From: Spirosoma pollinicola
GTDB taxonomy: Bacteria; Bacteroidota; Bacteroidia; Cytophagales; Spirosomataceae
DNA: 64,000 nucleotides
Assembly: GCF_002831565.1 (NCBI RefSeq)
Contig: NZ_CP025096.1
Span: forward strand, 6,129,014-6,193,013
Direction of reading: 5' to 3'
The notes beneath the pieces are model-generated. The model did not search any database, was not told the origin of the DNA, and was given only the letters and a program-made list of their open reading frames with translations. Each line of letters opens with the position of its first letter. Position 1 is the first letter of the stretch. A program made the translations under genes and the position numbers. Of the stretch, positions 52,179 to 55,125 are shown in pieces.

Positions 52179-52272
52179 TGGATGAGTTGTGTTAATGGCT
52201 TTTCCATGACTGTACTACAAGAAAATCCGCATATTGTCGTACTTTTGCAAAAGTAATCGGTACGTTCCCAAC

Positions 52273-54636
52273 ATGGCAAACCAAGAACAGGAAATTAACC
52301 AGCAGCCGGAAACCCAAAACCAGGCTACTGACTCGCTGGCAGTTAATACTCCCGAAGATATCAACAACGAATCGGAGGCATCTGTTACAGCACCCGCTCC
52401 AGAACCTACGGTCGAGGATAGCGCTGCAACAACACCCGAATCTGTAGAAGCACCCGTGGCTTCTGCAGACGAGACACAGCCCGAAGCTGTTGGTATTGAC
52501 GGCACAAATGAAGTACCAACCGCCACACCGGTTGACGAACCCACACCGGAGGCTGCTCCCGTGGAGGCTACATCTGCGCCCGAAGAATCAACTCAGGTTG
52601 AAGCCACTGCGCCGGAAACAACGCAGGAGGCCACCCCGGAAGTGAGCGAGCCAGTTGCCGAAGCAGAGGTTGCCCAAACGGACGTTGCCCCAACGGAGGT
52701 TGCCGAAGCAGAGCCCACAGCCGATGCTCCCGCAGAGCCGACGGCAGAAGCTGTTGCCAGCGAAGAAATGACAGCACAATATGCTGATGTTCAGGAAGCT
52801 GAAGACGAAAGTCCGGTCGCTTCGGTCGCTGACTACAGCCAGTTTTCGAAGGCTGATTTCGTTAATCTTCTCGAAACGCAGATGGCCGCCATCAGCGTCG
52901 CTTCAGTTACGCCCGGCGATTTCAAGAAAGCCGATCTGACATTGAAAGAGGTGAAGCCGCTGTTCGACCAGATGAAGCGGGCCGAGCGTGAAGCCGCTTT
53001 GCAGGCTTACGTGACGGAGACTGGTGCCGAAGAAGGATTCGAATACAAATACGACGAGTCCGTTCAGCGGTTCGACGAATTATATAAGTTAATCAAGAGT
53101 CAGAAAAATACGTATTTCCAGAACCTGGATAAGGCAAAGGATACCAACTTTGCCTCGAAGACGGACTTGCTGACCCGCCTGCGCGAACTGGTCGAAACCG
53201 ACGAGAACAACGCTGGTGATCCGAAGGTTAGCTGGAACGAGTTTAAGAAAATACAGGACGAGTGGAAAGCTGCCGGGAACATGAACTCCCCGCACAATGC
53301 CACACTTTGGGCTACTTACCACGCCCTTGTCGACCGGTATTACAGCAACCGCAATATTTATTTTGAATTAAAAGAACTCGACCGGAAGCGCAACACTAGC
53401 CTGAAAACGGAGGTGATCGAGAAAGTTGAAGCCATGGCGAAAGCATCGGAAGAAACGCCGGTAACGCGCCAGACGATCGACGAAGCCAACGCCCTGTTCG
53501 AGGAATATAAGCACATTGGTCCAGCCCCTAAAGCTGAGCAGGAAGTGTTGTGGGGACGCATGAAGGCGGCTCTGGATGTACTGTACGATAAACGCCGGGG
53601 TCAAACCAATGAGCAGCGGAAAGAGTCGGCACAGTTATACGAAGAGAAGTCGGCTATATACGAAGAATTAGTGCCCATTACCTCATTTGCGTCGAACAGT
53701 ATTAACGACTGGAACGACAAAACGAAGGCGGTAATGACGTTGCAGGATCGCTGGAATGCCATCAAAGGGCCAATGCCACGCGAAGAAGGCAAGGAACTGA
53801 GCAAGAAGTTCTGGGCAGCGTTGAAAACGTTCTTTCACAATAAAGGCGAATTCTTCCGTCAACTCGAAAGCAAGCGGGAAGAAAACCTGCGGGCCAAAGT
53901 CGACCTGTGCGAACAGGTAGAAGCTATCCTGGCAGCAGGGGAGGAGTCGCCTGAAATCACGCAGACGGTTATCGAACTGCAACGTCAGTGGAAAAATATT
54001 GGTCAGGTGCCTGAAAAGCAGAAGAACAGCATTTTCGACCGGTTCAAAGCGGCCTGCGATGCGTTCTTCAATAAAAAACGCTCCAAGAACCAAGAAACCG
54101 AACGCGAATTTGAAGGTAACCTAGCCAACAAAATTGCGTTGATCGAACGGATCGAAGCGGCCGCTACGGCCAACGCCGACCTATCCCAACTGAATGAGTT
54201 CAAGAAGGAGTGGAACAGCATTGGGTTCGTGCCGAAAAAAGATATGCAGTCTACCCAAAAGCGGTATATCAATGCGGTGAACGCACTGGTTGGCTCAACG
54301 GGTAAAATACCGGCAAAAGATAAAGAGCGCATCATGCTGCAAAGCGAAGCCGAAGCAACCCGTCCGGGTCGCAGCGATCGTGGTGACCGGGGTGATCGTG
54401 GCGACTACAATCGCGGCAATCGCGATGGGGGTAATGTGGAGAACAAACGCGAAAGTGATATTCGTCGGCGCATCACATCCATCGAGAACGACATTGCAAC
54501 TTATCGAAACAACATTGAGTTTTTTGCCCGGTCGAAAAACGCCGATAAACTCCGCGCCGACATTGACCGGAAAATTGCCGACGCCGAGAAACAGCTGGAT
54601 GACCTGCGTCATCAACTGCGTGTGGCTCAGGCATAG
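52273..54636 (+). CDS. DUF349-repeat protein
   Basis: 787 aa from the ATG at 52273 (MANQEQEINQQ). Residues 1 to about 180 are low-complexity and acidic (Glu, Pro, Ala, Thr, Val), probably disordered. Several DUF349 repeats follow, each about 70 residues with a Trp-containing core: FKKIQDEWKAAGN, EYKHIGPAPKAEQEVLWGRM, LQDRWNAIKGPMPREEGKEL, LQRQWKNIGQVPEKQ and FKKEWNSIGFVPKKD. An Arg/Gly/Asp-rich stretch (DRGDRGDRGDYNRGN) and a final coiled coil end it. The function is unknown; it is most likely a cytoplasmic scaffold or nucleic-acid-associated protein. Confidence 0.85.
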   Translation: MANQEQEINQQPETQNQATDSLAVNTPEDINNESEASVTAPAPEPTVEDSAATTPESVEAPVASADETQPEAVGIDGTNEVPTATPVDEPTPEAAPVEATSAPEESTQVEATAPETTQEATPEVSEPVAEAEVAQTDVAPTEVAEAEPTADAPAEPTAEAVASEEMTAQYADVQEAEDESPVASVADYSQFSKADFVNLLETQMAAISVASVTPGDFKKADLTLKEVKPLFDQMKRAEREAALQAYVTETGAEEGFEYKYDESVQRFDELYKLIKSQKNTYFQNLDKAKDTNFASKTDLLTRLRELVETDENNAGDPKVSWNEFKKIQDEWKAAGNMNSPHNATLWATYHALVDRYYSNRNIYFELKELDRKRNTSLKTEVIEKVEAMAKASEETPVTRQTIDEANALFEEYKHIGPAPKAEQEVLWGRMKAALDVLYDKRRGQTNEQRKESAQLYEEKSAIYEELVPITSFASNSINDWNDKTKAVMTLQDRWNAIKGPMPREEGKELSKKFWAALKTFFHNKGEFFRQLESKREENLRAKVDLCEQVEAILAAGEESPEITQTVIELQRQWKNIGQVPEKQKNSIFDRFKAACDAFFNKKRSKNQETEREFEGNLANKIALIERIEAAATANADLSQLNEFKKEWNSIGFVPKKDMQSTQKRYINAVNALVGSTGKIPAKDKERIMLQSEAEATRPGRSDRGDRGDRGDYNRGNRDGGNVENKRESDIRRRITSIENDIATYRNNIEFFARSKNADKLRADIDRKIADAEKQLDDLRHQLRVAQA

Positions 54637-54647
54637 TACCTAACCAC

Positions 54648-54725
54648 AAAGACGAAAAGGTATGGCGTAACGAGCGCAAAGAAGATAATTAATTGCGCTC
54701 GTTACGCCATACCTTTTCGTCTTTG
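54648..54725. repeat. 32-bp perfect inverted repeat upstream of the tRNA
   Basis: AAAGACGAAAAGGTATGGCG and the rest of the left arm (54648-54679) are exactly complementary to 54693-54724, with a 13-base centre. It directly follows the DUF349 stop. With the A/T edges it can terminate the upstream transcript. The AACGCAAAG-like ends recur near 63.8 kb. Confidence 0.85.
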
Positions 54726-54749: not shown

Positions 54750-54780
54750 TTGCATAGAAAAGCGAAAAAGCCTACTTTTG
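54750..54780 (+). promoter_or_regulatory. Promoter of the tRNA gene
   Basis: TTG at 54750-54752, a 20-base spacer, and TACTTTTG at 54773-54780 match the Bacteroidota -33/-7 consensus exactly. The tRNA 5' end is 35 bases after the -7 box. A GATTCG-GAAA-CGAATC hairpin (54787-54802) lies in the leader. Confidence 0.7.
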
Positions 54781-54814: not shown

Positions 54815-54898
54815 GCCAGTGTCGGATAGCGGTCGATTCCGCCTGATTTGTAATCAGGATGCGCAAGCGCGTCGGGGGTTCGAATCCCTCCACTGGCT
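54815..54898 (+). tRNA. tRNA with TGT (Thr) anticodon and class II variable arm
   Basis: Acceptor GCCAGTG (54815-54821) pairs perfectly with CACTGGC (54891-54897). The D arm has a 3-bp stem GGA/TCC with A14, G15, G18-G19 and A21 in place. The anticodon stem CCTGA/TCAGG is perfect around TTTGTAA, so the anticodon is TGT. The variable region (54859-54873) is 15 bases and folds as ATGCG-CAAG-CGCGT. The T arm is GGGGG-TTCGAAT-CCCTC. The discriminator is T, and CCA is not encoded. A class II arm is expected for Leu, Ser or Tyr, not Thr; the 3-bp D stem and T arm also look Ser-like. C at position 9 is unusual. It is a single-gene unit with its own promoter and terminator. Confidence 0.85.
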
Positions 54899-54909
54899 CA
54901 TTGATTATT

Positions 54910-54943
54910 AAGCACTTACAGAAATACTGTAAGTGCTTTTTTT
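54910..54943 (+). terminator. Intrinsic terminator of the tRNA unit
   Basis: AAGCACTTACAG and CTGTAAGTGCTT form a perfect 12-bp stem with a 5-base loop, followed by a run of T. It starts 12 bases after the tRNA. Confidence 0.93.
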
Positions 54944-54992: not shown

Positions 54993-55125
54993 GGATCAAT
55001 TCCAAAAGTTGGGATCAATTCCAAAAGTTGTGGAGAGCGTTGTATTTTTCTAGGTTTGTGTTCTTAATGGATCAATTCCAAAAGTTGTGGAGAGCGTTGT
55101 ATTTTTCTAGGTTTGTGTTCTTAAT
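54993..55125. repeat. Tandem 57-bp direct repeats (plus a 19-bp partial copy)
   Basis: A 57-base unit starting GGATCAATTCCAAAAGTTGT is present twice, identically (55012-55068 and 55069-55125). The first 19 bases occur once more just before (54993-55011). The repeats end where the transposase remnant's upstream region begins, so they are probably a duplicated end of the ISAon1-type element. Confidence 0.9.

Follow-up and report, generated by a model that had tools for sequence, protein, structure and literature searches.

A class II tRNA-Thr(UGU), fixed in the genus Spirosoma, at the locus of the class I gene

Long variable arms are confined to the tRNAs for Leu, Ser, Tyr and Sec according to the portions covered of three publications (PMC7609411, PMC9976931, PMC4033280), and these portions, together with that of PMC8450103, make no mention of a class II tRNA-Thr. 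Likewise, a literature search at the level of titles and the beginnings of abstracts, with most subscription papers outside its coverage, found no paper on such a tRNA. The allo-tRNAs (Mukai et al., 2017, as presented in the covered part of PMC7609411) resemble the gene reported here in combining a class II shape with a non-Ser anticodon, but they carry a 12-bp branch of 8/4 or 9/3 pairs and Ser identity elements, whereas the Spirosoma tRNA has a 7/5 branch and Thr-type ends. Similarly, the nematode nev-tRNAs join a long variable arm to a class I-type anticodon; according to the covered part of the source, they are eukaryotic, lowly expressed and charged with Leu (Gly-CCC), whereas the Spirosoma gene is bacterial and the only isoacceptor (PMC4033280). 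Since tRNA finders already call tRNA-Thr here, the gene itself is not new; what is new is the class II shape of a tRNA-Thr(UGU), its fixation in a genus and its distribution.

In this study, we analyzed a stretch of 64,000 nucleotides (the window) from Spirosoma pollinicola, comprising positions 6129014-6193013 of an 8.79-Mb contig. ARAGORN called tRNA-Thr(tgt) at 54815-54899 as the sole tRNA of the window, and the covariance-model check proposed by an earlier note on this DNA gave the same gene, with an RF00005 match at 54815-54898 (E 3.8e-9) and no other Rfam match in the window at the gathering threshold. The features of the locus are as follows.

52234-54636, plus strand: upstream DUF349 gene (Pfam PF03993, E 7.4e-79), the family-wide syntenic marker of the tRNA-Thr(UGU) locus
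54750-54780, plus strand: Bacteroidota-type promoter motif (TTG ... TACTTTTG), from the sequence; a TTTTGCA-type block recurs in other Spirosoma loci
54815-54898, plus strand: class II tRNA-Thr(UGU) gene (ARAGORN; Rfam RF00005, 55.2 bits)
54822-54841, plus strand: 20-nt D region (positions 8-26) with a 3-bp stem as in Ser and Tyr tRNAs, from the parsed sequence
54849-54851, plus strand: anticodon TGT (ARAGORN position 35)
54859-54873, plus strand: 15-nt variable region with a 5-bp arm, from the parsed sequence and predicted in the MFE fold
54910-54938, plus strand: intrinsic terminator-like hairpin (one found by the scan vs 0.4 expected by shuffles)

The anticodon arm consists of CCTGA, a 7-nt loop (TTTGTAA) and TCAGG. 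As the CCTGA/TCAGG stem closes this loop, UGU occupies positions 34-36, and the Thr anticodon read earlier is agreed on by ARAGORN, Rfam and the pairing of the arm. The alternative register with GTA (Tyr), raised in the earlier note, leaves the stem without pairing as judged by eye, and the UGU register stands. The variable region, ATGCGCAAGCGCGTC, had been described as a folding arm of 15 bases, and RNAfold indeed predicted its 5-bp stem in the MFE structure (-38.1 kcal/mol, z -3.38, 0 of 200 shuffles as low); in the same structure, the D region is paired otherwise than in the cloverleaf and the standard D arm is absent. The acceptor is GCCAGTG/CACTGGC, followed by U73, the discriminator T of the earlier description, and CCA is not encoded; the acceptor branch comprises a 7-bp acceptor and a 5-bp T stem. 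The D region shares its length of 20 nt with the Ser and Tyr tRNAs of the same genome. With its 15-nt variable region the gene lacks the customary class I shape, shape being no identity element. The body had also been called Ser-like, which agrees with the 3-bp D stem and with Ser-CGA as the nearest tRNA of the genome. Bacterial tRNA-Ser is alike in the class II arm, the 3-bp D stem and similar D and T arms; however, tRNA-Ser of the same genome has a Ser anticodon, an A/GGAGAG-type acceptor and G73, whereas the Spirosoma gene has a Thr anticodon, a Thr acceptor and U73.

The gene had further been credited with its own promoter, leader hairpin and terminator. TTG at 54750 and TACTTTTG at 54773-54780 form a motif that fits what we take to be the Bacteroidota promoter consensus, and the TTTTGCA-type block recurs upstream of the tRNA in the other Spirosoma loci examined. 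An own promoter is favored by this motif but not by the sigma-70 scan, which found no promoter on the tRNA strand. The terminator is supported by the site at 54910-54938. The supposed leader hairpin did not hold up, as the inverted repeat at 54644-54725 sits upstream of the promoter motif and outside the leader. This repeat is near-perfect, with arms of ~33 bp, lies between the DUF349 gene and the promoter motif, and was found in no other genome among the tRNA loci compared. In addition, a 57-nt unit (window 55012-55125; L013, L014/L061, L018, L023 and L062) occurs 79-113 nt downstream of six different tRNA genes of this Spirosoma genome (Thr-TGT, Ser-TGA, Pro, Asp, Met and Arg), always in tRNA orientation and in 8 full-length copies in total, with tandem pairs at two genes; it looks like a tRNA-downstream element, in a sample biased to tRNA loci.

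The Spirosoma genome contains 41 tRNAs (RF00005), and only one of them, the class II gene, bears the UGU anticodon. The other Thr tRNAs have GGT and CGT, both of class I, and the Ser tRNAs have GCT, TGA, CGA and GGA. An ordinary class I tRNA-Thr(TGT), which the earlier note had proposed to seek, was not found among these 41 matches. Across the genus, the class II gene is present at 100% identity over 84 nt in 33 of 36 Spirosoma genomes, its own included; the copy of G015 is 99% identical, the incomplete G012 holds nt 30-84 only, and no copy was found in G002, which is 84% complete. A class I pattern run over the same 36 genomes gave a single match, in G021, which is not tRNA-like by eye. These results showed that no UGU tRNA besides the class II tRNA-Thr(UGU) was found in the genome and that this gene is fixed in the genus. 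The earlier proviso that relatives may use it as their ordinary tRNA-Thr applies within the genus, with its identical copies, but not to the other genera examined, which have class I.

The earlier note left a choice between a genuine Thr tRNA with an unusual arm and a Ser-type tRNA that mistranslates ACA. We aligned tuf, nusG, rplK, rplA, rplJ, rplL, rpoB and rpoC with 3-4 relatives of other genera (G067, G060 and G085, with G036 for tuf and nusG only); class I tRNA-Thr(UGU) was shown in G036, G067 and G085, and for G060 there is a pattern match whose length is not listed. Opposite the 57 aligned ACA codons, the relatives had 180 residues, of which 148 were Thr, 13 Ser and 19 other; opposite ACG codons, 306 residues comprised 233 Thr, 30 Ser and 43 other. 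Invariant columns at ACA held Thr in 44 of 49 cases and Ser in 2 of 49, in comparison with Thr in 64/70 for ACG, 30/32 for ACC and 11/14 for ACT. ACA makes up 27% of the aligned Thr codons and is therefore not avoided. Additionally, the GCC/GGC acceptor and U73 are shared with the genome's class I Thr tRNAs, whereas all four Ser tRNAs of the genome have G73. The G1-C72 and C2-G71 pairs are present as well, which we take to be the acceptor identity pairs of E. coli tRNA-Thr. According to the covered part of a published account, Thr identity lies in acceptor-stem pairs and anticodon bases, position 73 being weak save in H. volcanii and yeast (PMC9976931).

Given ACA codons at Thr positions, a Thr acceptor end and the lack of G73, charging of the class II tRNA by ThrRS is very likely on these sequence grounds. 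A Ser-type tRNA charged by SerRS, placing serine at ACA by mistranslation or codon reassignment, would fit the long variable arm, the Ser/Tyr-like D region and the nearness of Ser-CGA in the own genome, but we regard it as highly improbable, as the residues at ACA are mostly Thr and resemble those at ACG, the discriminator is U73 instead of G73, the acceptor end is of Thr type and no second UGU tRNA was found to put Thr at ACA. Together with the status of sole UGU tRNA, the same evidence supports the genuine Thr tRNA and speaks against mistranslation of ACA.

The DUF349 gene (PF03993) lies upstream of the tRNA in 27 of 30 Spirosoma loci, the others being L032, at a contig edge, and L037 and L044, with other neighbors. 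Elsewhere in the family, 18 of 18 loci sampled from 16 genera have a class I tRNA-Thr(UGU) downstream of the same DUF349 gene; these loci were picked by their class I match with neighbors not a criterion, and the distance is mostly <0.5 kb and at most about 1.2 kb. This family class I gene is almost invariant. It shares with the Spirosoma gene the UGU anticodon, the GCC/GGC acceptor, U73 and the DUF349-adjacent locus, but has a 5-nt variable loop and a TAGCTCAGCTGGTAGAGCA-type D arm, in contrast to the 15-nt arm and 20-nt class II D region of Spirosoma. A pattern search of the family matched 170 of 200 genomes, and the matches listed outside the genus were of class I length, save four longer ones that are chance or decayed by eye. 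Five of 36 genera were without a match; three of these have a class I gene, at 89-93% identity, in 9 of 10 genomes (g31 and g56 lie outside the sample), and G175 gave only weak class I matches. In the complete family listing for the class II-length pattern, the 40-nt class II match was confined to Spirosoma. The 89-nt tRNA-Thr in L657 was judged by eye to be a class I gene in decay. As class I stands beside the same DUF349 gene in every one of the 18 family loci, class II has replaced class I tRNA-Thr(UGU) at class I's own locus. Two MAGs, one from Cytophagales (L287) and one from Hymenobacter (L289), likewise have a class II tRNA-Thr(UGU) at the DUF349 locus, and class II at one locus in three Cytophagales lineages is open to a non-phage history too.

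Sequence identities of the tRNA bodies, calculated with acceptor, anticodon and arm removed, bear on the source of the gene. The Spirosoma body reaches an identity of 0.90 with L287, G613 and a viral copy (L529) and of 0.88 with two copies from Kiritimatiellia; with Ser-CGA, the nearest tRNA of its own genome, the identity is 0.80. By this measure, the body was shown to be most like the class II tRNA-Thr(UGU) of phage arrays and scattered bacteria, a grouping made in this analysis. The best full-length viral match to the gene was 0.82, and a near-identical gene in a Spirosoma phage or element was not found. Like all our tRNA trees, those calculated for 171 tips after removal of the anticodon loop depend on about 50 positions and lack stability. 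In them, the neighbors of the Spirosoma gene are class II Thr copies from viruses and cells, with no other tRNA in the group up to 13 tips (node supports outward 0.93, 0.0, 0.89 and 0.85); beyond this, the tRNA-Tyr of the Hymenobacter MAG joins. Another tree with acceptors grouped 18 of 19 class II Thr (0.79); without acceptor stems they formed no clade, and Spirosoma stood with Tyr tRNAs, two Gln tRNAs and the Ser-CGA of its own genome. In G618 (Eremiobacterota), the class II Thr is nearest to the tRNA-Tyr of the same genome (0.86), and class II tRNA-Thr(UGU) thus likely arose more than once, with several origins. The tRNA-Tyr of the Hymenobacter MAG (G625; L352 1293-1373) was found to carry TCGCATAGCGGCAATTGC, a D arm that is characteristic of the class II Thr group.

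These identities also weigh on two origins within the genome. First, a duplicated Spirosoma tRNA-Ser (UGA or CGA) might have been remolded by changes of base 36 and the acceptor and have supplanted class I Thr. One base separates Ser-UGA from Thr-UGU, the D regions of the G613 class II Thr and Bacteroidota Ser-UGA agree at 17 of 20 positions and those of Spirosoma's own Thr and Ser-UGA at 15 of 20 (both by eye), and the 0.80 identity to Ser-CGA points the same way; yet the body is closer to class II Thr of other lineages and phages (0.88-0.90) than to any own tRNA, and occupation of the exact class I Thr locus is unexpected for a Ser duplicate, which leaves this origin unlikely. Second, the class I gene might have turned into class II in situ by growth of its arm and D region. 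The locus is the same, and the phylum of G618, with both classes and five variable regions of 6-7 nt, indicates that length can drift, but the nearly invariant class I of the family is unlike the class II body along the whole D arm and would have to converge on a 0.90-identical body, so that we consider such growth quite improbable.

Class II tRNA-Thr(UGU) is also carried by phages. A class II pattern matched at least 120 stretches in IMG/VR, of which 14 were dropped and 106 kept; these 106 form a tRNA-Thr(UGU) fold in which the variable region measures 11-23 nt, and N73 is T in 86, A in 13 and C in 7. At least two tRNAs occur in 94 of the 106 viral stretches and at least five in 72, and at four viral loci, 9 of 10 neighbor proteins matched PHROGs, e.g., HNH endonuclease, thymidylate synthase and RNA ligase. 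Sampling that admitted either class gave 99 new class I loci, 15 loci without a cloverleaf and six repeats from the class II scan; four of the six are identifiable as class II, and class II therefore accounts for at most 6 of 105 viral tRNA-Thr(UGU). Among unique viral variable regions of >=13 nt (n = 63), 8 have stems of >=4 bp vs a shuffle mean of 5.3 and maximum of 12, and we accordingly claim no conserved long stem for the viral set. Single examples among deposited phages include the 636-kb uncultured phage LR756504, whose tRNA-Thr has an arm of 17 nt; Sinorhizobium phage phiM12, where a gene of 84 nt is annotated as tRNA-Thr and its variable region of 12 nt lacks a clear stem; and Pseudomonas phage HPP-Temi, for which the annotation gives a tRNA-Thr of 87 nt. 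In a comparison with phage records, 105 matched the Spirosoma tRNA, but those among the matches listed are mostly tRNA-Tyr at 73%, so this number is no count of class II Thr. No match to the Spirosoma tRNA was found in plasmids at E 0.01. Class II-shaped phage tRNAs of other isotypes were also observed (Ile 12, Asn 11, Pro 7, Gly 4, Glu 4, Lys 4, Met 3, Cys 2, Gln 2, plus singles; within L418-L653, for example, L522 5657-5741, L477 3605-3691, L483 1126-1213 and L434 220-306), and some of them share the D arm of class II Thr.

Among cellular genomes, a class II pattern scan of GTDB gave at least 117 stretches, from which 42 were chosen by eye, one Spirosoma record standing for ten; archaeal matches were set aside by eye as putative intron-bearing Thr tRNAs. 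Among the matches listed, the chosen copies come from Eremiobacterota/WPS-2, Kiritimatiellia and relatives, Bacteroidota MAGs and others. Seven acceptor pairs are present in 41 of the 42, L214 being cut at the locus start, and the D arms of L203, L230 and L311 are class I-like. The class II Thr of phages and scattered bacteria resembles the Spirosoma gene in UGU, GCC/GGC, a variable region of >10 nt and a similar D arm, a likeness that is partly selected at TTGTAA, part of the T loop and GGC because the patterns demanded them; unlike the Spirosoma gene, which is single-copy, the sole isoacceptor and at an ancestral chromosomal locus, the phage genes stand mostly in arrays beside the host's tRNAs. 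With a combined pattern, 18 of 20 class II-bearing genomes, of unstated completeness, show class II alone and two (G626 and G627) show both classes. The phylum of G613 (Verrucomicrobia bacterium UBA7008) has matches in 127 of 135 genomes, class II being confined to G613, and that of G618 has matches in 101 of 118, about 27 being class II as judged by length alone. In the latter phylum, the tRNA-Thr(UGU) match lengths of G822, G825, G852, G874 and G878 imply variable regions of 6-7 nt, and these tRNAs are possible intermediates between the classes. Over 395 genomes of the Spirosoma phylum, the class II pattern matched six, two of them tRNA-like by eye and both Spirosoma.

This distribution might reflect vertical descent of an ancient class II tRNA-Thr(UGU) alongside class I, with differential loss, as the occurrence in several phyla, the two genomes with both classes and the DUF349 locus shared by L287, L289 and Spirosoma would allow. 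However, losses would be needed nearly everywhere, given so few tRNA-like class II genes in the Spirosoma phylum and the isolation of G613 in its own, and we judge this history improbable.

We consider it reasonably probable that the class II gene is the working ACA-reading, Thr-charged tRNA of Spirosoma and that it arrived laterally, likely with a phage or element, and displaced class I in situ. A mobile class II tRNA-Thr(UGU) would have entered the DUF349 locus, most likely via a phage or tRNA-integrating element, where we infer both the transfer and its direction, and the incoming gene would then have displaced the essential class I gene in place. It may have been retained if a Thr acceptor end and a UGU anticodon are enough for ThrRS, with SerRS kept off by U73 and perhaps also by the geometry of the arm. 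More tentatively, and with chances we see as nearly even, phage-borne entry may have displaced class I repeatedly (in Spirosoma, the Cytophagales MAG and the Hymenobacter MAG), phages using the class II body as a general chassis. If true, a viral tRNA would now be the host's only dedicated ACA reader, class II would not be limited to Leu, Ser, Tyr and Sec, and the phage chassis would also serve Gly, Cys, Lys, Ile, Asn and Pro anticodons, possibly evading host defenses that cut or modify tRNAs. According to the covered portions of two sources, own isoacceptors let phages overcome tRNA-targeting defenses (PMC11559606), and one defense system cuts a tRNA variable loop (PMC13096335).

In Spirosoma, a genus that can be cultured, an essential tRNA for Thr breaks the rule on long-armed tRNAs, and a class I copy was not found alongside it. 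The gene is also a naturally occurring case for studying acceptance of a class II body by ThrRS and its rejection by SerRS, and it suggests that phage tRNAs, usually deemed accessory, can take over core decoding. In addition, the DUF349 locus makes the states before and after comparable across genera.

tRNA genes commonly serve as integration sites. Copies of the 3' part of the tRNA (about nt 30-84) occur in 9 of 36 Spirosoma genomes, five of them on the same contig as the full gene and 6-77 kb apart from it. In G004, a 3'-half copy lies about 160 bp from a tyrosine recombinase, and no integrase was found among the few neighboring ORFs scanned at the 3'-part copies of G023 and G006. Present-day elements thus seem to use the tRNA-Thr(UGU) gene as an integration site. 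A second copy in L071 (8966-9029; G000:C1:1472965-1473028) covers nt 16-80 at 97% without acceptor stems and is uncalled by ARAGORN, and an ORF for an rve integrase lies about 1 kb from it. In G003, a degenerate second copy (L074 6611-6654; 86% over nt 20-63) follows ~120 nt downstream of the intact gene, and in G006 an Evf family protein (PF18270; L078 6269-7120) is encoded between the tRNA gene and its 3'-part copy.
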